24,182 nucleotides of DNA from Fragilaria crotonensis (lineage: Eukaryota > Bacillariophyta > Fragilariophyceae > Fragilariales > Fragilariaceae): the NCBI GenBank assembly GCA_022925895.1, contig JAKSYS010000803.1, forward strand, positions 1 to 24,182, written 5' to 3'. Under the pieces are notes generated by a model, which did not search any database, was not told the origin of the DNA, and saw only the letters and a program-made list of their open reading frames with translations. Numbering within the stretch: position 1 is the first letter of the stretch; every line of letters begins with the position of its first letter. The position numbers and the translations under genes are program-made. Positions 4,070 to 19,352 of this stretch are shown here, one piece after another.

Positions 4070-4891
4070 CCTAAGGAAAAGGGGCTCTAAGTAGATAAAA
4101 TATCATCAAGTATTTATATTTTTATTTGATACGGTGGGTGGATTTTTACTTAAGGATTTTACGGTTGGTGTGGATTTTGGAGGTCCGGTGGTACCTTATT
4201 ATTTAACAACTTTAACACTTGGTGTTACCGAGCTTTCTACGACTTCCTTGGTATGTTAACATAGGAGGTACACAGCATGCATACAAGTATCATCGTGTGT
4301 TATTTTCTGGTAATAACTTCTTGCGTAGCCACTTTTCCACCAAAAAAGTGGAGTATGACATCCAGTAAATCTAACTACGTACAGTGACATACTTCCGTAA
4401 CGTAGTTTACTGTAGTTTTTAAACGAAATACAGTTAATTCATCATACTGTTGTCTGCATTTGTCACATACAAGTACCTACTAGTACAAGTACCTACTAGT
4501 ACAAGTACCTACTAGTACAAGTACCTACTAGTACAAGTACCTACTAGTACAAGTACCTACTAGTACAAGTACCTACTAGTACAAGTACCTACTAGTACAA
4601 GTACCTACTAGTACAAGTACCTACTAGTACAAGTACCTACTAGTACAAGTACCTACTAGTACAAGTACCTACTAGTACAAGTACCTACTAGTACAAGTAC
4701 CTACTAGTACAAGTACCTACTAGTACAAGTACCTACTAGTACAAGTACCTACTAGTACAAGTACCTACTAGTACAAGTACCTACTAGTACAAGTACCTAC
4801 TAGTACAAGTACCTACTAGTACAAGTACCTACTAGTACAAGTACCTACTAGTACAAGTACCTACTAGTACAAGTACCTACTAGTACAAGTA
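4070..4891 (+). mobile_element. Element copy E1 (head, iterated sites, short tail ending in a minisatellite)
   Basis: The head starts CCTAAGG (4070-4076), followed by AAAAGGGG, AGATAAAATAT and a hairpin with ATCAAGTA (4105-4112) pairing with TATTTGAT (4123-4130). Iterated sites of the type ACGGTGGGTG follow at 4131, 4161 and about 4183. From about 4200 to 4468 I see no gene. Then comes the 16-bp minisatellite that reaches head E2. The left junction replaces the continuation seen in the other 177-bp repeat units, with CCCCT shared by both. Orientation is defined by the head; no gene for mobility lies in this copy. Confidence 0.7.
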
Positions 4892-4894
4892 CCT
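4469..4894. repeat. Minisatellite, 16-bp unit, about 26.6 copies
   Basis: The unit ACAAGTACCTACTAGT is repeated perfectly from 4469 to 4894. It contains the palindromes TACTAGTA and GTAC. The last, partial unit ends in ACCT and runs straight into head E2, sharing CCTA with CCTAAGG. Near-perfect identity means recent expansion, and the true copy number may differ from the assembly. Confidence 0.97.
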
Positions 4895-6209
4895 AAGGGG
4901 GCGGGGTTCAAATTAGATAAAATGTCCTCAAGTATAGATGCTTTTACTTGATACGGCCGGAGGGGAAATTTGTACGTCCGGAGGGGAATTTTATACGTCC
5001 GGAGGGTTTTTACTTAGGAACGACTACGTCCGGAGGAAAACGCTATCCGTACAATTTGCTCGTACAAAAATATGGCGCAATTTAGGTGCATCAACTCATC
5101 GAATGATAGTCTTTACGTATGTTAAACCAGGTATGGTCAAAATGTTTTTGCCGCCCAATTTTTGAACTATGCACTCGGCACTCCTGGTACAAGCGCCATT
5201 ATCACATCATGATGACCACCCTTGAGATACAAGAGGTGACTACCAACAACATGTCTCCTTTGCAAGCATCTGATCAACTTGATCACCCCTGCATCACTTC
5301 AAGGTATATTTTCCATTTCTCCCTTGGACTTGGGTGTCGACTCTGCCCAAAAAGTGTCTATCAGATCAATGAGAGATGCATCCGTGAGCATGTCAAAAAA
5401 CATGGTTTTGACAGCAGGGCCGCGTCTATCCGTTCCCTTTTTGATACTTTTGTAACAAAACTGGAAGTCATAAAGGCTGCTGGAACAATTGAGCCGTTCG
5501 AATTGACAACAGTACTTATAAGGGATTTTCATGCATCTGCGGTGAAGTTTTTCCAAGAAAGGACAACGCACGCCGTCACTGCACAAGGTTGGGTTGTGAT
5601 CCGTCTTGTCTCCAGAAGGTTGAGCTCATCAAATTGTGTTGTGGTCAATTTGTTTCAGAGGTGCAAATTGACAAGTTCTTCAACACTGTACCTCGAATCA
5701 CGCAGCAATTTGATTACTGCAAGGCAAGAGCGGCTTTGCTTCCTTTCCTTCCACCCAGGAAAAGCACGACCATACGTACACACATGTACACCCCATCATT
5801 GATGGTTGTGTTTGTCCACAAGACTTTGTAAGAAGGATAAAAAATGACTTCATTTCTATCCATTCTCCACCGAGCCAAATGCATGAGACAGTTCTGATCA
5901 AAATTCATAACCAAGCTGAAAATTGGCTTTTGAATTTTGCGCAGAAGAATATTTTGATGGTGCCAGGGAATCTCCGCGCTGGACTACAAAATTTTGATGC
6001 TGGTGAAGTCAATGGTATGTCACAAGGGAAGACTTATACGATGCAGCATGATCCATCCAGCTTACTACCTGAATTGAAGAAGCTTTTATCCTATTCCTAT
6101 CGCAAGGGCCTTTTTGCATCAAGGGGTTTTGATGAAAGCGATGAATTTGCAGTCGCATATTTTTTGAAAGATTTTTTGCTTGAAGTTCCACCATCAGTTG
6201 CCACGCATC
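4892..6209 (+). mobile_element. Element copy E2 (head, iterated sites, truncated helicase)
   Basis: The head is CCTAAGGGGGCGGGG (from 4892), then AGATAAAATGTCC, with a perfect 7-bp hairpin of TCAAGTA (4928-4934) and TACTTGA (4945-4951). Four iterated sites follow at 4953, 4974, 4995 and 5026, with consensus ACGTCCGGAGG and spacings of 21, 21 and 31 bp. ACTTAGG, an inverted copy of the start of the head, lies at 5012-5018. A shared block ACGTATGTTAAACCAGG is at 5115-5131, and the helicase open frame follows. The copy is cut at 6209 by head E3. Confidence 0.8.
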
Positions 6210-6213
6210 CCTA
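5209..6213 (+). pseudogene. RecQ-like element helicase, N-terminal fragment (copy 1), truncated and frameshifted
   Basis: This is a diverged paralogue of the helicase at 13722-17799. The likely start is the ATG at 5209; an ATG at 5119 lies inside a block conserved between element heads and is less likely. It holds a first C2H2-like finger (LGCRLC ... EHVKKHG) and a second C-x-C ... H ... C finger (GFSCICGEVF ... RRHC). It then follows copy 2 through ELIKLCCG, FDYCKARAALLPFLP, MVPGNLRAGLQNF and LLPELKKLLSYSYRKG. Two shifts, near 5510-5540 and 5790-5825, move it between frames. It stops at 6213 because head E3 replaces the rest, so the helicase motifs are missing. It cannot encode an active helicase. 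Confidence 0.82.
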
Positions 6214-6490
6214 AGGAAAAGGGGTTCGAACTGGATAAAAAATCCTCAAGTATAGATGCTTTTACTTGATACGTCCGGAGTGGTGAATTTACGTCCGGAG
6301 GGGGATTTTTGACGTCCGGAGGGATTTTTTACTTAGGAATTATCACGTCCGGAGGAGAATCACTCCCCATGCGGAGACAACATCACGTATGTAAAACATG
6401 GTATTGTTAGAATGTTTTCGTAGACCAAATTTGGAGCTGTGCACTCCAAACTCCCGATGTCAGTGCTGCTTTCATGTCCACTGTTTGCCT

Positions 6491-7560
6491 CATTTTGTTT
6501 GAAGATCTGTTGTGCAAGTGCCTACCACTGTTCTCAACATCCATGGTTTCAGATATTCGAATGCAGTGGTGGTGCACATGCCAATCACGATAAAAAATCA
6601 ATTGTCGATTGATGATCTGTAAATTGTTGTTTGGATCCTCAAGAGGTACATTTTGTTCAAAGATCTGTCGTGTAAGTTTCATCTCCACTGTTCTCATCGT
6701 GCATCCTTTCAGATACTACCTTGGACAATTATTCGTTAAGATGGAGTATGAACCACACATGTGGTGTACATGCCGAACACGTTTAAAAAATGAATGTCAT
6801 TGTGCGAATTGTTGTTCCAAAACTCAAGAGGTACCATTCGTATTGTTGTTTCAAAACTCAAGAGGTACCTTATGCTTGAAGATCTGTTGAGCAGCTTTGT
6901 AAGTGAAGATGAAGTAATGTTTTGCGGAGTTGGATCATTTGTGAATCACGATTGGACACTCAAATTTCATTCTCTATTTCATTGTTTGCATTCGTAACAG
7001 GTGCGGTTGTTTGGAGGTCCAACATTATTCGAGGTAAACCAATCTCAAAGTCTGTCCTTTCAGATTGAAAATTGGACTCTTATTCGTGACGAAACAGTAT
7101 GAAACGAGGACTGAGTTCATGTGTGATTCACGATTGAACACCAAAACTTAATTCTCTATCTTATTGTTTGCATTCTAAAGAGGTTTGTTTCCGTCAGAGG
7201 TCTTGTGTCCAACATTCTTCAATGTCTACTCTTCTCAAGGTCTGTTGTTTCAGATTTAAAATCAGGCTCTAATTCGTCAAGATACAGTATGCAACAAGGA
7301 GTTGGTACATGTGCGAATCACCATTAATGACTTGGTATTCATTCTCAATTCAGTTGTTTGCATCCTCAACAGGTTTGTTTCCGTCGGAGATCTTTTCCTG
7401 AACATTCATCGAGGTCAATTCTTCTCAAAGTGTGTTGTGACAGATTTCAAATTGGACAATTACAAGGCAAGATACGGTATGAAATGCATATTTGGTTCTT
7501 CTGCAAATCGAAAACTTGTAATTCCTTCTTCAAAATGTTACAATAGTTTGCTCATCATCA
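6491..7560. repeat. Degenerate tandem repeats of the 190-bp family
   Basis: Units open with (AG)GTxxxTTT, carry a TTTCAGAT about 65 bp later, and continue with ATTGGACTxTTATTCGT. Anchors fall at 6491, 6649, 6999, 7181 and 7371. The last step is exactly 190 bp and the others are shorter or interrupted. The same unit occurs in E6 (8600-8940) and as a clean array in E7 (10769-11640). Confidence 0.65.
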
Positions 7561-7922
7561 TTGTTGGTTGCTTATCGTTGTTGTTGTCACATCAGGAGTG
7601 TTTGTTACTTTGATGGTTTCGTCTCGTCATTGCTTACTTTGCTCACAAAGCATCATTGTCGATGATTTGTTCAAAAATCCATTACAAGTCATACTTGGTC
7701 ATTCAGTCATATTCAAGTATTCAAAAATAGTTTCCTTCGCTCCCATGCAAACCATTGTTTGCTATATAATTCTTACTTAGAAATATTTGCTAAAAGAATA
7801 AAATACTTAGAAAAATCAAGGCTAACTGAAATAGTTTCCTTTGCTTCCATTGAAACCATTTCACGTAAAGTATGAAATGTGATTGGGGTTACTTAGGTGA
7901 AAATTGCACAATTAAATAGTTT
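7561..7922. other. AT-rich tail of E3, no gene seen
   Basis: This is low-GC sequence with partial internal repetition: ATAGTTTCCTT occurs near 7730 and 7830, each followed by C or G and a short run leading to AAACCATT. No open frame of note, no RNA gene, and no inverted terminal repeat matching the head was found. Confidence 0.4.
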
Positions 7923-8091
7923 CCTAAGGGGGCGGGCCTAAAAATAGATAAAATATCCACAGATATAGATACTTTTACTTGATACGACGGGTGTCATTTT
8001 TAACTTAGGATTTGTACGGTGGATGTCACTTTTTGTACGTCGTGTGTCACTTTTATTTAGAGACGTGTACGTCGGGTGCTACGCCGCGTTC
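7923..8091 (+). mobile_element. Element copy E4 (head and iterated sites only)
   Basis: The head is CCTAAGGGGGCGGGCC at 7923, then AGATAAAATATCC. The hairpin here is weak because the left arm has changed to CAGATA. Four sites of the type ACGGTGGGTGTC lie at 7984, 8016, 8037 and 8069 (spacings 32, 21, 32), and ACTTAGG is at about 8013. It is very close to the head of E7 and is cut at 8091 by head E5, at the point where E7 continues TCCCGTAG. Confidence 0.75.
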
Positions 8092-8334
8092 CCTAAGGAG
8101 AAGGGGCTGTTTCTAGATAAAAAGTCTTCAAGTATGAATGCTTTTACTTGATACCACTGGTGGTGTTTTTAAAACAAAACGAAACCTAATTATCGGGTTG
8201 TCACCGTCCTGAGACCGTACGGACTCAAGTGTGTACCCCATCCCGGCGAACCCGGAGATCCGCGAGGAATTTACTTGCTAGCTATGAAAGTGACCGTTGA
8301 CCGAAATATGACGTTATCAGCGTTTGACGTTCGC
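8092..8334 (+). mobile_element. Element copy E5 (head, short unrelated tail)
   Basis: The head is CCTAAGGAGAAGGGGC at 8092, with AGATAAAAAGTC and a perfect hairpin TCAAGTA (8128-8134) and TACTTGA (8145-8151). After TTGATAC comes CACTGGTGGTG, but a clear series of iterated sites is absent. The rest (about 8170-8334) has no gene. It is cut by head E6. Confidence 0.65.
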
Positions 8335-8599
8335 CCTAAGGGGGCGGCCGAAAATATAGATAAAAAGCTTCAGGTATGCATGTTTTTACTTGATACGTTG
8401 CGAGGGCGTCGTTGTACGTTCGAGGTACGTCCGGAGAGATTTCTTTGTACTGAACATCCCCGTAGATTTATGTACCATGTTGAGGATTGTCAAAGTGCTT
8501 TGAAGTATGTACAACCTGGTATGCTCACTTATACTTTGCTGCCCATTTTTCTTCTTGTGCACTCGTCGGCACTACTCTAACTACCATGAAGACCACTTG

Positions 8600-8945
8600 A
8601 TGATTGAGTTTTCATCCTCATCAGGTTTATTTCGTTCAAAGACCTCTTATACAACTTTCGCTTTGAAGTCGCAACGACTATTACTTCAGATTCAAAATTG
8701 GTCTATTTTTTAGCAAGATAGTATGAAATGTGAAGCTGGAGGAATACCAGTCACAACTGAAAACTCGAATTTCGTCGTTCTTATGGCTGTGTTCAGCCTC
8801 AGTGGGTACGTTTCGTTCGAAGACCCGATGTACAACTTTCTTCGCCTTGTCCCATTCTCAACGTTCGTCGTTTCAGATTAAGAATTGGTCTATTTTTAGT
8901 GAAGTTACGGTGTGAAATGCGAAGTTGGTGGCCATGCCATTCGTG
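8600..8945. repeat. Two degenerate units of the 190-bp repeat family
   Basis: Units begin near 8623 (AGGTTTATTTCGTTCAAAG) and 8804 (GGTACGTTTCGTTCG). Each has (C)TTCAGATT about 65 bp later, then AATTGGTCTATTTTTAG and an AAACTCGAAT-like stretch. The step is about 182 bp. Compare the array at 10769-11640. Confidence 0.65.
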
Positions 8946-9417
8946 ATTGAAAACTCAAATTCGTGGTCCATGCACGGAACTTTTGTCACAACGTCACCTT
9001 AACCCGTGACAAACGTGACAACCCTAGCTCCACAAGGTGACGTTCCACAATGTTACTCCGCTTATCTGTCTGTTACCCTATCACGTTTCACGACTAGATT
9101 CGCCAATTGCCTCGCTGACGCCGACTAACGCGTCATTGCGAACACCGGAGTCGCTTAACGTCCACCGCGAGTTTTAAGTATCGCTATCACGACACGTCAC
9201 AAAGACGTTATCGTTTTAAGCGATACACCCGCCTTTCCTCGCCATTGTCCGCAATCCTATTTTGCATTTTTTGTTCTGACAATCTCACAACTCAGCCTGA
9301 CGAAGCATCCAGCGAAAGTCTTAAACATAAAAGACTTGTTAGTTGTCACTTCTCTAAATATCGTTTGATCGGACACAGTGTATTTCTTCCACTTTTACCC
9401 TAACCTACATTCTCACC
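8946..9417. other. Leader region of the gene at 9418
   Basis: The base composition changes here: GTCAC and GTGAC motifs are frequent at 8985-9060. A pyrimidine-rich stretch precedes the ATG at 9418 (CTTCCACTTTTACCC, 9388-9402), as in algal promoters and leaders. No gene was seen within it. Confidence 0.4.
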
Positions 9418-10393
9418 ATGTCTAATCCTGCGACCAGCGCAACAAACAAAAGAGTCCGCCTCTCCAACCCAGCACTCGCTGCTGGAAAAAAGAATCAAGA
9501 TCCGATCACTACCCCAGCAAACGCTGCAAAATCGTCGATCACTCAAGCACTTGCGTCGCACGATTCTAAAGAAAAATCATTCTTCACCCCGTTATGTATC
9601 GAACTTCTTGAATTACAACTTAAGTTGCTACAAAAGAAATCTACGCTACATCGACTTGAAGATCCCTCATTCATTCCAAGAAGCATCAGATTATCTACTC
9701 TACTCGTTTTGTCCAACGACGCGACCGATCATCCTGAAGCCCTCGCTCTTCGTGAATCTATGAAGACTGTGGTCACTACTTATCAAGATAGTGCTCGCGT
9801 GGTCCTCATCCACAAAGCAGCGGAACTTGAAGTGAAAGTACTACATGATACTGTCGTTCAAAGATTCGTCTCTCTTTTAACACATATCTGTTCCACTTCT
9901 CTGCTTGCCAAGTCTGCCGATCAAGCGACTACAAAGTTCACTTTCTACTTTGTATGTTGAACGAACGGAGGAATGCAAGCGGAACTCTGTACACGCGACG
10001 AATTCTCAAAAGTTCGATCTCGTTTCCTACCAAGACCCCAGGGTTCTTGATAGAGGCTGGATTACTAACCCAGCATCGCTCGCGGACTGCACTTCTTATT
10101 GAGGAAACAAACCCACCGGGTGAAATCCTTAAGATCCAACGCTTCGTCCACACACCGATGGAACAATATTTTGTCTCTGTTGCTTACCAATCTTCTAAAC
10201 AGAAGTTGGGTGCATATTTTACGAACAAACTGTTACGAAAGCTACTGAAACGGCATCCATGCAAATTGATTCGAATATTGAATTGCGCTCGGAGACGTTA
10301 CAATCGCTCATCGATACTGCCCTTCTCAAACAATCCAAAGAATTCGAGAGAAAGCATAAAAGCCTGGAGAATACTGTCAAACAGATATCCGCC
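9418..10393 (+). pseudogene. Uncharacterised coiled-coil protein, frameshifted and cut at its 3' end
   Basis: The ATG at 9418 opens a 180-codon frame with a Ser/Ala/Thr/Asn-rich start (MSNPATSATNKRVRLSNP), then a helical, Leu/Lys-rich segment (LELQLKLLQKKSTLHRLEDP), then FIPRSIRLSTLLVL and a long amphipathic part (ALRESMKTVVTTYQDSARVV). The frame stops at 9960 (CAG-less TGA). Coding-like sequence resumes in other frames, ending with a clear coiled coil (ALLKQSKEFERKHKSLENT) at about 10320-10380. It is cut at 10391 by head E7. I recall similar predicted proteins, with this FIPRS motif and a C-terminal coiled coil, as widespread repeats in diatom genomes, perhaps a gag- or ORF1-like protein of a retroelement. 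That memory is not verified here and no function is assigned. Confidence 0.6.
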
Positions 10394-10768
10394 TAAGGAG
10401 AAGGCCCTAAGGAGAAGGCCCTAAGGGGGCGGGCCTAAAAATAGATAAAATATCCTCAGATATAGATAATTTTACTTGATACGGTGGGTGTCATTTTTAA
10501 CTGTGCATTTGTACGGTGGGTGTCAATTTTTGTACGTTGTGTGTCACTTTTTATTTAGAGACGTGTACGTCGGGTGCTACGCCGTGATCCCGTAGATCCT
10601 GTACCATCTCAATTGGCACGCCTTGTTTCTTGCCTTAAAAGCACCATGCCTCACACGTATGTTAAACCTGGTATGGACCAAGTCTTTCTGCTGACAAATT
10701 TTTGAGTAATGAACACCATACTCCTGGTCCGAGTGCTGTTATAATTTCAATGTTTGCATCCTCAACCG

Positions 10769-11640
10769 GTACGTTTCGTTCAATGGCCTACTATCAAACT
10801 TTGTTTGAGATTGATTTGTCTCAACGTCCGATGTTTCAGATTTGAGATTGGACTGTTTTTCGTAAAGATAGATAAGGAAATGCAGAGGTGGTCAACATGC
10901 CAATCACGATTCAAAACTCGAAATTCGTTCGCCCATCTGCTGATTGCATCCTTAAGCAGTACGTTTCGTTCGATGGCGTACTATCAAACTTTGTTTGAGG
11001 TTAATTTGTCTCAACGTCCGTTGTTTCAGATTTGAGATTGAACTATTTTTCGTGAAGATAGATAACGAAATGCAGAGGAGGTCAACATGCCAATCACGAT
11101 TCAAAACTCGAAGTTCGTTCGCCCTTCTGCTGATTGCATCTTTAACAGGTACGTTTCGTTCAATGGCCTACTATCAAACTTTGTTCGAGGGTAACTTGTC
11201 TCAACGTCTGTCATTTCAGATTTGAGATTGAACTATTTTTCGTGAAGATAGATAACGAAATGCAGAGGAGGCCAACATGGCAATCACGATTCAAAACTCG
11301 AAGGTCGTTCGCCCTTCTGCTGATTTCATCCTTAAGCGGTACGTTTCGTTCGATGGCCTACTATCAAACTTTTTTCGATGTTAATTTGTCTCAACGTCCG
11401 TTGTTTCAGATTCGAGATTGGACTGTTTTTCGTGAAGATAGAGAATGAAATGCAGAGATGGTCAACATGGCAATCACGATTCAAAACTCGAAATTCGTTC
11501 GCCATTCAGCTGTTTGCATCGTTAACCGGTACGTTTCGTTCACTGATCTTCTATCAAACTTTCTTCGAGGATGATTTGTCTCAACGTCCGTCATTTCAGA
11601 TTTTCAATTGGACTATTTTTGGTGACGATACAGTATGCGG
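10769..11640. repeat. Tandem array of a 190-bp unit, about 4.6 copies
   Basis: ACGTTTCGTT recurs at 10771, 10961, 11151, 11341 and 11531, every step exactly 190 bp. In each unit GGTACGTTTCG or AGTACGTTTCG is followed about 70 bp later by TTTCAGATT, so the first 71 bp look like an intron (GT ... CAG) and the other 119 bp like an exon. The exon-like part has no frame open through all units. The short proteins predicted here are by-products of the repeat. Related degenerate units lie in E3 and E6. Confidence 0.93.
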
Positions 11641-11649
11641 CGTCGGTGC

Positions 11650-12019
11650 ACATAACAACAATGATTGGAAACTCCAAAATTGTTCTGCAAATCAATTTTT
11701 ATGAACTCAGCAGGACCGTCTCGTTCCATTGTCTTCACTTCAACTCTGTTTGTCTTTTTAGAGTCTAAATGACGGTTGTTTTAGATTTTATATTGGACTC
11801 TTTTCACAAAAAAACGTGAAATCTATTTTACGTGTGGTCACTGTGTCTCTTGAATAGACGTTACATAACAACAATGATTGGAAACTCCAAAATTGTTCTG
11901 CAAATCAATTTTTATGAACTCAGCAGGACCGTCTCGTTCCATTGTCTTCACTTCAACTCTGTTTGTCTTTTTAGAGTCTAAATGACGGTTGTTTTAGATT
12001 TTATATTGGACTCTTTTCA
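11650..12019. repeat. Perfect 157-bp direct duplication with 56-bp spacer
   Basis: The segments 11650-11806 and 11863-12019 read identically, base for base. The first begins ACATAACAACAATGATTGG and ends TATATTGGACTCTTTTCA. The unit is a remnant of the 190-bp family (it contains TTTTAGATTTTATATTGGACT). Identity over 157 bp implies a very recent duplication or an assembly effect. Confidence 0.95.
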
Positions 12020-12221
12020 GTGAAGATACATCATGAAATGTCATGTTGGTGCTCGTGCTCCGGATTGTGTTATGAAACCACTATGTTAGGATGAGATGAT
12101 AAAATTCCATGATGAGTACTGTACATGTAGTATTTTATGGTTTGTGTACAACAATAGTGTAAAGGGAATAATCGACTGTACATACTGAAGGAATATTACT
12201 GTAAGACGTGATGCTTACGGG

Positions 12222-12380
12222 TCAAAAACTCGTCATGTGTTCCCTGTGACGAGTTTTTGATTATTGCAATTGATCGAAATCTCGTCATGTGTTCCATATG
12301 GCAAGTTATTGATTATGGAAATCGATCGAAAACTCGTCATGTGCTTGATATGGTGAGTTATCGATTACGGCGATTGAGCA
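12222..12380. repeat. Three 52-bp tandem repeats with a strong hairpin in the first
   Basis: CTCGTCATGTG recurs at 12229, 12281 and 12333, each step 52 bp. In the first unit, TCAAAAACTCGTCA (12222-12235) and TGACGAGTTTTTGA (12247-12260) form a perfect 14-bp inverted repeat around an 11-base loop. The later units keep this only partly (CATGTG...TATGG). The array directly precedes the Copia fragment. Confidence 0.88.
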
Positions 12381-12385
12381 TGCAC

Positions 12386-13477
12386 AGTTCCGAGGACCGC
12401 ATCGGCCTGATTCGATTCCCAAGCCGCGCGTCCGCTCATCCTTCGGAGGATATCTGCATCAGTTTGCAGCCTACCCGTCTTCGCGGCGGCCTGACTTTCA
12501 CTGATGCCCTCCTCATTCCGACGTCGGATGCCCAAGTTGCCCCTTTGCCCTGCGGACCTCATCGTTTCGTTGTCGATCCTTTTACCACTGTCGTCGCGCC
12601 GCCTCCTGCCTACTACCCATCGTCGTGCGCCACCACGCTCGATGCGATGGTTTTTCCGGAGTTCCTTGATGCCTCCACATCAGTCGTTGAGCAGAGCTTC
12701 GCTGTTAACGCTCTCGGACGCTCCGCACTCCGCATGTTGTGGCACCAACGCCTTGGTCATCTGAATTTCCGTCGACTCTCCGAACTCCACAAGCACACTC
12801 GGGGTATGCCCGTACTCAGCCTCCCAGACACTGTCGACGAATGCGCGGTTTGCATGTCGTCCAAACTGCGAAAAACTTCGCGTGGCCACGCCAACACCAT
12901 GACTGCGACCGAGTGTCTTCAAGGTCTTGGAATCGATTTCGCTTTCATGGTACAAAAGAGCTCCGACTCCAAGCGTTTCGACAACTTGGTCGGTCACAAC
13001 GGCGAGACCTGTTACGTTCTGATCACCGACCATTTCAGTGGCCGATTGATTGGTCGCGCATTCGCCACCAAAGCCCCGCCTGTGGATTGGCTGAATCAGT
13101 GGCTCGCCAACAATGCACCTGCATGTAACGGAAAGTATGTTCGGATGGATGGTGGTGGAGAACTTGGGGGCGCTGTCGCGAAATCCTTGATACTTTCGCC
13201 AACTTTGGTTATCAAACCCAGCTTACTGGCCCCGACTCCTCCCACCAGAATGGGCCCGGCGAACGTCCCCATCAAACCATCGGTGATGCCCTGCGCGCCA
13301 TGTTGACCGGCGCCAGTCTCCGTCCCGCTTTTTGGCCGTACGCGTTCTATCATTTTGTCCGCCTGTACAATTTTATCCCACATGGCGCCCGGATGTCCAG
13401 TCCCCATGAGTTGTGCGGCGGCGAACTCCCCGATTTGTCCAAATTACGCACCTTCGGTTGCCGTGTCCACGTGCGTC
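12386..13477 (+). pseudogene. Ty1/Copia retrotransposon fragment: gag-pre-integrase and integrase core
   Basis: The frame contains the pre-integrase zinc motif (MLWHQRLGHLNFRRLSEL, then CAVCMSSKL, the HHCC pattern). It continues into an integrase core with acidic residues in LGIDFAF and VRMDGGGELGG. A one-base shift in the G run near 13165-13170 moves the rest to another frame, which reads GPDSSHQNGPGERPHQTIGD, including the catalytic Glu region, then FWPYAFYHFVRLYN and ends FGCRVHVRP. Gag, protease, reverse transcriptase, RNase H and LTRs are all missing. The GC content is clearly higher than around it. The right end is cut by head E8 exactly at CCTAAGG. Integrase normally joins Copia cDNA to the genome; this piece cannot act. 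Confidence 0.9.
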
Positions 13478-16400
13478 CCTAAGGGGGGCGGGGTTCAAAC
13501 TAGATAAATTTTCCTCAAATATGTATATTTTTACTTGATACATCAGGAGCCATTTTACTTAGGCAAATTTGCATCGGGAGCCATTTTTCTGCATCAAGAG
13601 CCACTGATTACTTAAGGAAAGTTGCATTGGGAGCTACAGATTGCTTCTGTAGACTCTCCTATCCATGAATTTAAACTCGATCATACCATTCATCCCTTGG
13701 CAATCACAATAAAATCATACCATGCTGCCGATTGCAACATCCAGGAAGCGATGCGCATCGGATGGGATACATTTGCCAGCATTGATTGAAGCAAATGGCT
13801 TTGCTTTCAAGAATCCTTCACCTGTTGTCCACCCCATCATGACTATCCAAGAAGTTTTCACATTCTCTCCGTTTGGTCTAGGTTGTCGACAATGTATTCG
13901 GTCTGCTTCAATTCAGTCAGACGAGAGATCCATTCAAATTCACCTGAAAAAACATGGTATGGACAGTAGGCTTTCGACAGTCCGTTCTCTCCTTGAAGAA
14001 TATAAAATGGAACTACTTCATGCAAAGGCTTTGGGAAGTATCGATCCGTATCGGAGCGACAGCAAAACCTATGCTGGATTTTCTTGTGTGTGTGGTCAAT
14101 CCTTTGTAAAGATTGGAAATGCAAATCGACACTGCAAGACTGTGGGTTGTGATTCTTCAAAACTACAGAAAGTTGATCTCATCAAGCTTTGCTGCGGCAG
14201 GTATGTGACTCATGCTAAAGTCACTTCATTTTTCAACGAATCACCACACAATTCAAAACAGCAATTTGATTATTGTGAGGCAAGAGCTGTGCTTTTTCCT
14301 ATTCTTCCAAAAAGGGAGAAACAGGATCATACGTACACACATATGTTTACACCCCTTATTCATGGATGCGGTGGTGGCAAACAATTCGTCCAGAAGATAA
14401 AATCCGACTTTTCTTCGATCCATTCATCACCGTGCTCATCAACTGAGTTCTTGTTGGTTCAAATCCACAAGCATGCTGAGGATTGGCTCCTTAAGTTCGT
14501 GCAAAAAATATATTGATGGTTCCTGGCAATCTCCGAGCTGGACTTCAAACATTTGAAGGTGGTGAAATAGAAGAGATATCACATCGTTGTACCTACACAA
14601 TGCAACACGATCCACGGAGTTTGCTTCCAGAGTTGAAAAAGCTTTTATCCTTTTCTTACAGACGAGGTCTCTTTGCATCGAGAGGCTTTGACACAAGCAA
14701 TGCCTTTGCAGTGCCCTACTTTTGAAGGACTTGTTGCTTGAAGTCCCTCAATCGGTGGCATCTCTTCCCTTCGTTGCAGAGTTCTGTTTAATGTTTGCTT
14801 TCCGAGTCTCAACCAATGGTTCAGAAATCAACATGATCTCTTGTGACACAGTGTCCTCTGTCTTCTCAAAGATCTCATCAGTTCTGAAGGCAGCCGTTTG
14901 CTCCGTTATCTGTTCATTTTCCAACCAGTCATTTACAATTTTTGGTCCTGCACTTGTCAAATCAGTACGTGAATCACCAGTGATTCACATTTTGTCACCG
15001 ATGGTTCGTCAAATTCGTGAAATGCATCGTCGCATGCCTAAAAGGAGAAAGACAACACTTGATACGGTTGGCAACATTATGGTTGATCAATATTCTTTCT
15101 TATTTGATGAATGGTCTCGAATCGTACCTCGGACAGTGTTCTTGATGCGGGATGCAATTACTGAATTGGCAGACGGGCTATGGTGGGAACCCATTGTTGA
15201 CCTTGCAACAAATATCAAGGTAAGGGTTGACAAGGACACAGGGGACCTTGCTCTTGTCGATATTCACTCAGTTTGGAAGCAAGGTTTGTGCTTGCCTCTT
15301 GAGCATCTGGATTATTTAACTGCACAACTCGAGATGTCTTTTCATGGATTTGGTGGTGGCTCGGCACGAATGACCGAATTGGTTGAACCATCAATGTTTC
15401 ACTGCGTTTACAGCAATGATACTATCTACTATTCCCTTACATCATTGAAAGGTTTCACCAATGCTTCACGACGAAAGTGTAAACAAGTTGAACGCAAGCT
15501 TCCACCAATTATCTCCCGATATTTTTTGTTGTTTCGATCCCTGATCCAAAACAATGGAAGCTTTTTCTCAGATGAAGACTCTCAATCATTAATCTTTCCA
15601 AGGCGAGTCAATCGATCAGATTTTGGACCATCTCATGTGATTCGGGATCTCTTCAACTTGTCGTCATTACCAGACATGACACAGGTTCGTCAGTTCTGGG
15701 CTTGCGTCTCAAATTTTGTTACTGGTGGTGAGCAACACAAGTACTTGTGCTCAAGCACCATCGGAGCATCAAAAATGGGTCATTCAACATTTACTCATGC
15801 ATCTACCTATTCCAGTGAACGAGTCGGTTCAGAAGAGGCCCACTTCAATGCCTATCACTTTGCTTTAGGAGATACATCATATGGATTCTCGAGATGTCAG
15901 AATATTTTATCCTTGGCTAATCTGCGGTCGGCAATGCAACTCCGATATCCAACTTCCTCAACACCAGAGGGTCACAACTACCTTTCCTTGCAACAAAAAG
16001 AGTTGGTTGAGTTTGGGTATGGTATGACCTTCACCAAGCCACAGCATTGCGTTGCTCTACTAGCTCCTGGTGAGGGGAAGTCAGAATGCTACATAATCCC
16101 AACCATTGCTCGCGTCCTCGCAAACCAAAGTACGAAGACCATCATCCATGTTTCTCCGTATCGCTTCCTGGCCGAATATCAGTTCGCCACATGTTCAGCA
16201 GCCTTTAAGAAGCTTGGACTCGATTCCAACATGCGTGTTTTCACCGGGCAAGACATCACTTCTGATGGTGTGTTGCCGGAAGGACTCTACACGAAAGAAC
16301 GTCTTCCGAGTTTACTGTTTTTAAACCTTGATGCCTTAAACAACTTGTTCCATTACTTCGGGGAAGTTTTCAAGTCGTGGTTGGATGTCGTCGACAAAAT

Positions 16401-17799
16401 TGTAATAGACGAAGCGCACACCATCCTTTCCGAGACATGTTTCCGAGACAAGTACAAGGTATATTCCAAACTTCCAAGTTTGGGTATTCCCATTGTCATG
16501 TTGAGTGGATCAATGCCTACGTTTGCAGTTTCTAAATTCACAAAGCAACTAGGATTGTCCAACGCTGATGACATGAGTGATGTCAAAGTTATTCTTGGGA
16601 ATCATGTTGTCGGAAAGTTTCCAAGCGGATTTAAGATAAAGGTAGCGGTTTCGTCTCTGTACGTAAACCTCGCTGCCCGATTCGTCCAGAAAAAGATGGA
16701 CTCAGGTGGAGGACTATCAGGTCCACTTTGTGCTGCTCATATTATTGTTGCCGAGAAGAAGGATGGCATGACTTTATTCGAGCAGCTTTCCACCACCCGG
16801 TATAAATGCAAGTTTGTTTCCTCTGATTCTACTCACCAAGAAGTCAAAGAATCTGCCACTGCATGGAGCAATGGAAAGTTAGACATCCTCATATCGACAA
16901 CCATGGGCTTGGTCGGCAATGAAAATCCATACTGCAGATATTTGGTTTGCGTAGGATATCTGTATGATTCCATGCAGATTGTGCAAGCGTTCGGTCGATT
17001 GCGAAACTACATGAGAACCTCTTTTGGTCAAGTGTTATTCGCGGTTCCCGACAAATTGTCCAATAACCGAACTAAGGATGATGAACATCGCTACACTCGG
17101 CTTTTGAATGAGAACTTTATTTCTTCAAAAGACCATTGCAACTTCAAAGCGGTTATGACATCGAGTGGAGTTCATGATTGGTTATCTGACACCTCCCAAG
17201 GACAGAGGGGTTGTGCGATCAAGATTTTGTCGGCTTCGTTTGGGAGAGAAACGTTAGACAATTGTGGAGCCTGCCACTTTTGTCGCAACATTCCGTTGAT
17301 GAGTCTCCAAAGCGAGGCAACCAACCGCATTCATCAAGTCCGAAAGGATGAATGTGCCTCGCGACGCGTCTTACTCCAATTGTCATCGGCCTGTCTTGTG
17401 TGTGGGAAACCCACGTGTCGAGGAATACCTCTCTTGAGAGGACCAGGTAGCAAGTCCTTGCCAGAGAACCAACAAGTTTGTTTCCAATGGAAAATGTGTT
17501 ACGCATGTGGTGTGAGTACACATGATCGCAAGCTTTGTCCCTTTAAAAAAGATTATTTGAACAACCGAGCATGCTGCGAGTGTTGGGTTTTTAAAGGCGC
17601 TGCCGGTTCCACGAAGCACGAAAGCAACAGCTGCCCAGTTAAGGGCAGACTGCGACGATTACTGTCGCATACCTTCCTCAAAGCAAAAGTGACAGGTACC
17701 TTCCAGGCTTACGTTGAACAAATTTACACTTCAGAAGCATCATTTTCCAAGTTTTTGGCCTCACAGGAGACAGCATTTATGACACCTGCGTCCCGGTAG
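13478..17799 (+). mobile_element. Element copy E8 (most complete; right end not located)
   Basis: The head is CCTAAGGGGGGCGGGG at 13478, then AGATAAATTTTCC, with hairpin TCAAATA (13515-13521) and TACTTGA (13532-13538), one mismatch. Four sites of the form CATCGGGAGCCA lie at 13541, 13572, 13592 and 13625 (spacings 31, 20, 33). ACTTAGG and ACTTAAGG copies lie between them. The helicase starts 244 bp after the head. The end given is only the end of the helicase; the element may extend through the divergent gene pair and beyond the window. No terminal repeat that would mark the right end was found. Confidence 0.65.
13722..17799 (+). CDS. RecQ-like DEAH helicase with N-terminal zinc fingers and C-terminal zinc knuckle (two frameshifts)
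   Basis: The ATG is at 13722. The N-terminal part has a C2H2 finger (C55, C58, H74, H78) and a second finger (C122, C124, H137, C143), recalling the zinc-finger region of fungal OrsD-type proteins. The largest clean frame (1025 codons, in frame from 14722) holds the helicase core: Walker A APGEGKS (residues 448-454 of that frame), DEAH (563-566), SGSMP motif III (595-599) and motif VI QAFGRLRN (755-762). A four-cysteine site C831, C848, C851, C854 follows, with the x16-x2-x2 spacing of bacterial RecQ. Further on is a CCHC knuckle (C926, C929, H934, C939). Single-base deletions in an A run (14503-14508) and a T run (about 14719-14723) split the gene into three frames; copy 1 shows the uninterrupted reading. 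It probably unwinds DNA as part of an element or subtelomere function. Confidence 0.85.
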
Positions 17800-17894: not shown

Positions 17895-19352
17895 CTACTT
17901 TTGCACACTGTTGTTATTACCTCCCACCACTGCAGTCTTTAGGTACAACGACAAGCAAAACACATCCTTGTTTTCATAATTGGATGTTCGCGACGAAAGA
18001 CAGTGTTGATACAATGGGTTGAAAAGAAGCATGTCCCCTGGCCTGAGCGCGACAGCTATCCCTTCCTCAGCAAAGGTGAAGTAATTGCACACTTCAGCTT
18101 CCATGCTGTACCGATCGATATCCTGTCGTAGTCCCCACGCGGAAGCAATTGTTGTCAAGGAATAAAAAAAATCCTCGTCCAAATGTGTGTTCAAGTAATA
18201 GTTCTTGCCACAAGCAAGACTTCCCCATATTTGCTGCGATGACACTCCTTTCAGATTTGGCCACTGTGCCATCATCTTCGCAAATTGCAATCCTCGTAGT
18301 TCATTTGCCGGCACGTATCCTTTGGCAACATCCTGACATGTACTAATCAGCTTGCAAATTTTTTTCTTGTCAACGTTGCTCAACTTTTTGGCCACGATTC
18401 GGAAATACCTTTTCTACCTCTATTTGGCTTTAACCCCACAGTGATGTACTTTCCATCATCCTCCGCCACAGTCACTCGTCTTCCCTCTCACTTCAGCTTT
18501 CGTTTGCGAACCATCCAATGCGTATAGTGATCGAAGTGTTTCATGCACATGCGTCAATTTTTCGATTGCATATTCCCGTGGAATCAATGTGAACACAGTG
18601 TCCCCACCTTCTGATTCCATTCTTGCACCAAGCACTGTATCAACAACCTTGAGATTTTCAATTGCTGATAGCACATGTGCGTTCCGGTGCTGTTTCAGAT
18701 TCTTCATTACCTTATCTCTCGTTCCGCTGAAGAAAATTGGCGTTCCGCTTTTCAAAAGTAATGGGCAAATGCAGTGCACTGGCGATGCCTTAACAAGGGT
18801 CAGTTTTCCTATCTTGTTTTGCTTTTTATAATCGCGTCTTGCCGCCTTCTTGTTTTTTTGTTTTCAATTTTTAAAGATTCATTGTATGCCTCGCGCACTT
18901 TTTTGCTCGATGGTGCTTTGCTTGATTTGTATAGGTGTTGATATCCTCTCTTTCCCATGATTTCATTTTTTGAAGCACTGGTTTTTATTTTGACGACTGT
19001 ACTACGTTTTTTGATGGTTTCCAATTTGATGTTGGATCTTCTGCTACGGCGACATTCCTCTTGGCTAGCAGGGTCCTTTTTCAGAACAGTACTACTAATC
19101 ACGTTCATTTCCTTGTTGGAACACGTGCTATCAACCGTACTATGAATCATGATGGGTTCCGAGTTGAGGTTGGAGCTTCTGCTACCGCGACTAATGTCAC
19201 AGCTAGCGGTGTCCTGGTTAACAACTGTACTGCACACCCATTTCATTTCCATGTTGTAACTCGTGATATCAACCGTACTTTGACTCAGGATAGTTTCCTT
19301 GTCAATCTCGGCGCTTCTGCTACCGCGAGGAATGCCACAGCTAGCGGTGTCC
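17895..19352 (-). pseudogene. 2OG-Fe(II) oxygenase-like protein (TET/JBP-like fold suspected), frameshifted
   Basis: Read from right to left. The N-terminal region consists of three 46-residue repeats (listed separately), then basic sequence (SSKKVREAYNESLKIEN), a middle part (GTPIFFSGTRDKVMKNLKQH; NLKVVDTVLGARMES; KYITVGLKPNRGRKGIS) and a C-terminal oxygenase-like domain. In that domain, THLDED supplies the His-x-Asp iron ligands, RPGDMLLFNPLYQHCLSSR the distal His and a candidate 2-oxoglutarate-binding Arg, and FCLSLYLKTAVVG the closing strand. Such enzymes hydroxylate DNA bases, RNA or proteins. Frame changes occur at a run of seven T on the + strand (18853-18859), near 18480-18490, and at the five T of 18375-18379. 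The frame opening at 18395 starts with GTG, so it is not the true start. A stop lies just before 19352, so the start codon may be in an upstream exon. The oxygenase call is good; the TET/JBP link is tentative. Confidence 0.68.
18939..19352 (-). repeat. Three 138-bp repeats encoding 46-residue repeats
   Basis: CTTCTGCTAC on the + strand recurs at 19038, 19176 and 19314, each step exactly 138 bp. On the minus strand they encode 46-residue units with DTASC or DPAS, then (P/S/R)RGSRS-like and STV motifs. As 138 is a multiple of three, repeat number can change without breaking the frame. The units become more diverged toward the oxygenase domain. Confidence 0.85.

Follow-up and report, generated by a model that had tools for sequence, protein, structure and literature searches.

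A 24,182-nucleotide stretch of the genome of Fragilaria crotonensis (contig JAKSYS010000803.1, positions 1 to 24,182, forward strand; hereafter the window) carries eight copies, E1 to E8, of a conserved head that runs from CCTAAGG to TTGATAC and is followed by short, regularly spaced sites, i.e. iterons. It is probable that each head is the inner end of a subtelomeric element, that the zinc-finger helicase encoded by the element binds the iterons of its own head, and that the head is joined to a CC dinucleotide with replacement of the chromosome end. Comparison of the sequences speaks strongly for the sites being read by the fingers, which points to each kind of element recognising its own end.

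The genome comprises 62 Mb in 881 contigs, the window sitting on the contig labelled C783. In agreement with a diatom, it gave nineteen matches to the silicon-transporter family of Pfam, 18 above the cut-off, whereas a match was seen in one of 14 control genomes and lay below the cut-off. With up to three mismatches allowed, the head pattern gave at least 131 matches genome-wide versus three for the reversed pattern. The main scan covered 260,325 bases in 37 stretches, the window included, with about one-third of the heads of the genome lying outside the sequence read; six small later loci were used for single points and one further locus for a blind test. An nhmmer head profile yielded 97 matches in the main scan, 87 of them full heads, which were clustered by their site region into 22 families (F00–F21), the clustering being our own. 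A putative hairpin in the leader (TCAAGTA/TACTTGA) was seen by eye in several heads and is missing from others.

Concerning the spacing, the gaps in the window were measured with free gaps of 14–40 bp and no imposed period, and the values given by the first-pass annotation for E2, E3, E4, E7 and E8 were reproduced exactly. Of its values for E1 (30 and about 22 bp), the 30 was retained and the remainder replaced by the actual 30-20-34 with a weak fourth site; the 21-11 spacing of E6 was seen by eye, the automatic chain having missed the middle site. Seven of the eight heads indeed carry three or four sites, E5 (8092) alone keeping one. A broad distribution of gaps in a larger sample had been named as an outcome that would speak against phased sites; the spacing proved tight, all three gaps measuring 20–22 or 30–34 bp in 78 of the 87 full heads. 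A four-site chain was present in 86 of them, the exception being C521-35924 (family F15), and a free-gap search did not find such a chain at the later locus L060. When each family is represented by its commonest chain, every gap fits in 16 of 21 families (48 of 48 gaps), F00, F17, F18, F19 and F20 being truncated or irregular and outside the standard gaps. There are two main layouts, approximately 31-21-33 in 12 families and approximately 20-21-33 in F02, F06, F08 and F13. The gaps gather near 21 and 32 bp, i.e. about two and three helical turns; many of the long gaps contain a T-rich box like TTTAYTTAGG.

Repeated 11-mers (at least 9 of 11 positions matching) in the 22 family representatives gave 105 family-lag matches, with lag peaks at 20–21, 31–33, 52–54, 74 and 84–86; 200 dinucleotide shuffles averaged 12.8 such matches and never exceeded 27. 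The phase concentration in 16 families was 0.83 at 10.5 bp and 0.87–0.89 at 11–12 bp (uniform null, 10,000 draws: mean 0.17, maximum 0.48), the gaps not being independent between families because these share ancestry. The regular spacing behind the proposed helical phasing of about 10.5 bp is thus borne out, whereas 10.5 bp as the sole period was dropped, since 11–12 bp fits as well. The array, in short, consists of several short direct repeats at helically related spacing, as iterons do, with 9 of the 87 heads departing from this. Nearly all sites fit a common frame, TRC-NNNN-GGWG, in which the letters vary between families mainly at positions 4–7, 10 and 12–14; the motif switching described earlier therefore holds for differing letters, not for unrelated motifs, and the copies in E4 vary more than the single motif quoted for it.

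A fragment of one gene was found within 5 kb after 46 of the 87 full heads; after the other 41, either the gene is missing, or the locus comes to its end or is cut early. This gene starts with two finger motifs (open reading frame orf1), followed by a long part with the DEAD and Helicase_C domains (orf2). The helicase part has at least 64 genome matches (best 45 of 135 candidates scored) and orf1 has 120, many of them broken. In most readable copies the finger-1 stretch begins about 290–430 bp from the head start, finger 2 being found about 500–650 bp from it. Finger 2, with the pattern C-x-C-x12 or x13-H-x5-C in 13 families, agrees with C2H2/C2HC spacing and helix positions; its Pfam matches are all below the cut-off, the best being PF22992 (E = 1e-4, 22.5 of 26.3 bits). 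The x15 spacing of finger 1 is longer than the usual x12, and only a trace match to zf-BED was obtained (E 1.7). The window orf1 had no Pfam match, and orf2 matched only DEAD and Helicase_C. An OrsD-type domain, initially suspected, was rejected after no Pfam match to E = 5 was seen in four stitched orf1 copies and one orf2; no relatives of orf2 were found in viral contigs.

The covariation between the site motif and the finger residues of the linked protein, suggested as a check by the first-pass annotation, was positive. Finger 1 was readable in 15 and finger 2 in 13 of the 22 families, F00, F11, F13, F15, F17, F18 and F20 having no readable finger. Mutual information was ranked, with permutations, over 345 pairs of finger columns and site positions, the site letters being the majority letters per family, from which single sites depart. 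The three highest z-scores all fell on classic C2H2 contact positions. The first pair joins helix position 3 of finger 2 with base 10 (z 9.8, p 0.003): N accompanies A in ten families, and S accompanies T in three. The second joins helix position 6 of finger 1—the residue just before the first His—with base 4 (z 5.9; R with C in five, D/E with G in six, I/N with A in four families); by hand count, only 4 of 630,630 label arrangements are as clean (approximately 6e-6), i.e. a probability of 0.002 after allowing for the 345 tests. The third pair consists of helix position 2 of finger 2 and base 12 (z 5.8), D going with G in seven of seven families, G with C in three and with T in one, and A with T in two. 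A further contact-position pair, helix position 5 of finger 1 and base 5, reached a z of 4.5. Wherever finger 1 could be read, base 4 matches helix position 6 (15 of 15 families); wherever finger 2 could be read, base 10 matches helix position 3 (13 of 13, and also F19, read later). Two readings served as tests of rules set down beforehand, F08 for the finger-2 rule and finger 2 of F19 for all the rules (finger 1 and the iterons of F19 being already known), and both fitted.

As to the chemistry, Ser at helix position 3 suits T, and Asp at helix position 2 favours G or T after the triplet. If finger 1 read the opposite strand, its pairs would become the expected R–G and D/E–C. The finger-2 helix RKDNALR, which pairs with GAG then G, has the same residues at positions −1, 2, 3 and 6 as RSDNLVR, assigned to GAG by a design tool quoted in PMC5260015.

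Common descent of neighbouring sequences would be another source of such a pattern. Head and fingers lie within a few hundred base pairs of each other, the families are related, and a few non-contact columns covary too, so the two could have hitch-hiked without any contact. This is considered very improbable, given that the three leading pairs are contact positions with sensible chemistry, and given the comparison of families. In the non-finger part compared, F04 and F09 show 98% identity, and they have an identical finger 2 and the same right half-site, and yet differ in the finger-1 stretch and the left half-site; F06 and F07, 85% identical there, differ at both base 4/helix 6 and base 10/helix 3. 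Conversely, F05 and F21 (61% identical elsewhere) have a common finger-1 helix and half-site, and F04 and F12 (59%) a common RSIQI stretch and left half-site. All these patterns contradict simple descent. On a non-finger tree of the 12 families with sufficient sequence, base 4, the helix-6 class and both jointly take five steps each, and base 10, helix 3 and both jointly take three each. In two chimeric heads (C413-9172 and C490-12938), the leader is like that of one family and the sites like those of another, finger 1 following the sites. The earlier expectation that the motif follows the linked protein is accordingly confirmed at the level of the finger residues, not of the helicase subfamily, as F04/F09 illustrate, and the covariation supports the view of the sites as putative co-evolving, iteron-like binding sites. 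They further resemble iterons in that specificity residues of the element's own protein covary with them.

The iterons would thus be recognition sites, roughly on one face of the helix, for the two N-terminal fingers of the element's own SF2-type helicase. According to the classic C2H2 code, finger 2 would read GAG or GTG (bases 9–11) together with the next base, while finger 1 would set the left half-site, mainly base 4. The same covariation would be seen if the sites, which lie upstream of the reading frame and not far from the finger-1 stretch, were an autoregulatory operator or promoter of the helicase gene with no relation to mobility. That is unlikely, however, since E3, E6 and E7 keep head and sites without a helicase fragment before the next head (1.7, 2.1 and 3.1 kb away), as do seven of ten F02 heads without an assigned fragment, and since the sites lie within about 60–160 bp of the precise end of the element. 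The loss of the gene with retention of the sites suggests a role in cis in propagation, and their place near the precise end in gene-less copies favours recognition of the own end, for joining or copying, over gene control.

Concerning this end, a junction was regarded as testable if a head-less homologue aligned to within 1 base of it with at least 80% identity over 100 bp, homologues beginning like a head being left out. This applied to 27 of 78 distinct head junctions (C389+21395 and C878-21382 representing the same site with different heads). CC stood exactly at the CCTAAGG start in 24 of the 27, against a background of 4.8%, the remaining three having AC, CT and TA; the base before the head is C in 44 of the 78. 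Two heads lacking their outer part, C121+80411 (21 bp) and C592-22631 (10 bp), are joined inside the leader, and their junctions are not CC. The 14-bp head stubs (CCTAAGGAGAAGGC) found in the window before E7 also precede a full head at locus L059 and on C754 near 12757, as if new heads had been joined repeatedly at CCCT inside an older head. It may be mentioned that an F08-type head on C23 (locus L065, near 1486) and F05 heads on C121 (83993) and C122 (30232) have the same upstream flank up to the same base, as though an element had been exchanged for another at the head.

With regard to genome position, the heads are all in one orientation on 20 of 20 contigs with at least two full heads. 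Terminal telomere arrays occur at the left ends of C23, C490, C592 and C754, and the heads on these contigs, among the matches listed, are all on the minus strand, so the tails face the telomere in four of four cases; the arrays were taken from the matches listed and one repeat variant, and other capped ends may be missed. C427 has internal telomere arrays and no head among the matches listed. The last element of C23 consists of a head and a helicase end followed by TTAGGG(G) repeats, and on C411 the helicase gene is cut inside finger 1 and (TTAGGGG)3 follows immediately, pointing away from the head, the arrangement that a healed chromosome end would show. A shorter telomere-like run follows a truncated F14 element on C551 (locus L044, near 30020–30039), its units being opposite to the orientation expected for a healed right-hand end.

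Based on the above results, the iteron array would mark the inner end of a subtelomeric mobile element. The bound helicase assembly may open or hold the head, whose terminal CC would be joined to a CC in another chromosome arm, the element and a telomere taking the place of the arm beyond; tails would afterwards be truncated, and heads stacked in one direction, by erosion or further joining. Physical binding, the DNA-joining activity and the replacement route are what we infer here, joining and end replacement from few cases, and it is the joining at CC together with the missing distal flanks that suggests replacement of the chromosome end. Precise heads at CC would equally fit site-directed integration, and a conventional insertion, for example of circles with two precise ends, the tails of which were later lost by the erosion of chromosome ends seen on C411, remains a serious though less probable account. 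Most flank searches spanned too little DNA to exclude resumed flanks. Against conventional insertion, six compared tails had no common precise 3′ end, head stubs are stacked without tails, and the remainder of an F04 element cut at 12,075 on the telomere-capped C754 was not found, a DNA search with its start giving only a different element at 69% (best 40 of 52 candidates). More tentatively, and with somewhat less than even confidence, the replacement of chromosome ends may define a new eukaryotic mobile element living by it, in which new families would arise through exchange of a specificity cassette made up of the iterons and finger 1, each protein then acting on no ends but its own.

Several points weigh against the reading of an end-replacing element with a self-recognising helicase. 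The flank beyond the junction was sought in 41 cases, 22 without and 19 with a match, inspected by eye, the latter fall on the homologue or on the junction as such, on tandem repeats or short stretches, or on the related gene of the next element; this is weak evidence, because the downstream DNA was often only 0.3–7 kb. The loss of element remainders could also follow ordinary insertion and later loss of the end. Heads lie nearer the tail-facing contig end on only 17 of 27 contigs (56 of 87 heads), for which reason a location of all heads near contig ends was given up. Many element copies are broken. With respect to the arrays, 8 of the 87 full heads have other gaps and one has no four-site chain, F15, F18 and F19 retaining sites without the standard geometry. 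The covariation rests on approximately 15 families of common descent, and non-contact columns also score well: column 24 of finger 2 with base 13 (z 4.5, p 0.0002), column 9 of finger 2 with base 12 (z 4.4) and column 12 of finger 1 with base 8 (z 3.6). For GTG, the tool quoted in PMC5260015 gives E, not S, at helix position 3. The zinc ligands of F09 may differ, because Ser stands at the aligned second Cys of its finger 1, with a Cys three residues later. Finally, no recombinase, transposase or HUH match was obtained with Pfam on the window reading frames and element copies or with a PDB profile.

No nuclease or polymerase was identified in the element proteins scanned either. A tyrosine recombinase in orf2, suggested by eye from an R...GHS...Y pattern at about residues 318–365, gave no Pfam or PDB match and is retained as a lead; the stretch is conserved, with five of six aligned orf2 copies covering it. 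The combination of an array with a cognate helicase is the pattern of plasmids, and the phased sites might serve an extrachromosomal form as its origin of replication, in the manner of iteron plasmids; this is rather improbable, the helicase being of the DEAD type and the reading frames scanned giving no initiator or primase match.

Table 1 Features of the elements and their surroundings in the window
Feature	Position	Strand	Remark
Head E1	4070..4129	+	Outer end CCTAAGG... to TTGATAC; nhmmer head profile
E1 iteron array, family F01	4130..4227	+	4 sites, gaps 30-20-34
Head E2	4892..4951	+	Joined at CC to 16-bp tandem array; head profile
E2 iteron array, family F06, TACGTCCGGAGGG	4952..5038	+	4 sites, gaps 21-21-31
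E2 helicase-gene relic, N-terminal part with fingers	5119..6209	+	Ended by E3 head
Head E3	6210..6269	+	Joined at CC inside E2 helicase gene
E3 iteron array, family F02	6270..6357	+	Gaps 20-21-33
Head E4	7923..7982	+	169 bp to next head; head profile
E4 iteron array, family F14	7983..8081	+	Gaps 32-21-32
Head E5 with single site 8152-8165	8092..8165	+	Array truncated
Head E6 with 3 closer sites	8335..8439	+	Sites 8394, 8415, 8426, gaps 21-11; middle site by eye
Two stacked 14-bp head stubs, CCTAAGGAGAAGGC x2	10392..10419	+	Directly before head E7
Head E7	10420..10479	+	Head profile
E7 iteron array, family F14	10480..10579	+	Gaps 32-21-33
Head E8	13478..13538	+	Upstream flank is copia-type ORF (open reading frame) with gag-pre-integrase domain
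E8 iteron array, family F04, TRCATCRGGAGCCA	13539..13636	+	Gaps 31-20-33
orf1, N-terminal part of helicase protein, 264 aa (amino acids)	13722..14516	+	Two zinc-finger-like motifs
Finger 1, C-x2-C-x15-H-x3-H	13884..13955	+	Helix 6 covaries with iteron base 4
Finger 2, C-x-C-x12-H-x5-C	14085..14150	+	Helix 3/helix 2 covary with iteron bases 10/12
orf2, 1025-aa helicase part	14722..17799	+	DEAD aa 440-599, Helicase_C aa 674-760; Cys-rich C-terminal region by eye
Convergent second gene, three ORF pieces	17895..19252	-	Possible oxygenase, motif by eye, unconfirmed

Concerning the remaining features of the window (Table 1), the bodies of E3, E6 and E7 are probable gene-less derivatives. They contain repeats of approximately 190 bp (6600–7500, 8600–8960 and 10750–12030), and a conserved stretch of 95 bp is common to E2, E3, E6 and E7 (5115, 6385, 8503 and 10655). 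The perfect 16-bp tandem array directly upstream of head E2 (4468–4895) has approximately 27 copies, and related repeats precede heads on C431 and C84. The copia-type ORF ended by head E8 covers 12257–13477. A glycosyltransferase WbsX gene (Pfam PF14307; 877–2281, minus strand), split over two overlapping ORFs, is the sole clear non-mobile gene match among the 16 window ORFs scanned. By eye, at least 15 helicase ends have the first piece of the convergent gene no more than about 700 bp away; this piece is not listed beside the C490 and C754 helicase ends, and elsewhere it occurs without a helicase. The HxD...H pattern of the gene is by eye like that of 2OG-Fe(II) oxygenases; there was no meaningful Pfam match, and the PDB profile gave only a weak match, to the oxidoreductase 8acv (E 1.9).

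The families offer a natural collection in which the co-evolution of zinc fingers and DNA sites can be followed, changes of base and residue coming together; F04/F09 is a ready-made specificity swap. Helicase-coding subtelomeric elements gain a testable anatomy with a defined mobile end, a target dinucleotide and a candidate binding protein. End replacement, if true, would be a DNA-based renewal of chromosome ends without reverse transcription.

Among the known systems, site arrays are read by the element's own protein in the case of plasmid iterons with Rep initiators and geminivirus iterons with Rep, and in geminiviruses the site sequence and a Rep region covary. The present arrays are similar in having short repeated sites near a control end with a proposed reader from the same element; they differ in belonging to a eukaryotic chromosome-end element and in that the proposed reader is a zinc-finger pair on an SF2-type helicase, with covariation following the C2H2 code. 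Helitrons have a helicase and Cryptons lack terminal inverted repeats, two features seen here, the termini and the target differing from both; the HUH Rep and Pif1-type helicase that define Helitrons had no Pfam match in orf1 and orf2. Telomeric retrotransposons, such as HeT-A, attach by reverse transcription from the 3′ end, whereas the present element is joined by its 5′ head; the 16 window ORFs scanned, out of 47 with a length of 80 aa or more, gave no reverse transcriptase match. The yeast Y′ elements encode a helicase and amplify by recombination, and we know of no precise CC-joined head in them.

In the excerpt of PMC13177704, the Y′ elements are described as subtelomeric and repeated, as is the element reported here. 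MoTeR (PMC8381367) and FoTeR (PMC12857005) figure in the excerpts as telomeric retrotransposons, and the present element forms partly truncated arrays at chromosome ends like these two and HeT-A. The fungal subtelomeric RecQ-like or telomere-linked helicases, multi-copy and partly truncated at chromosome ends according to the excerpts of PMC7473861 and PMC8381367, are alike in the location and truncation pattern described for them; the same excerpts mention no defined mobile end, iterons or CC junction. No such element was found described in the open-access literature, as judged from the titles and abstract openings listed. Iteron arrays with a co-evolving reader are known from plasmids and geminiviruses, and their version with a zinc-finger SF2-type helicase at eukaryotic chromosome ends appears to be new.

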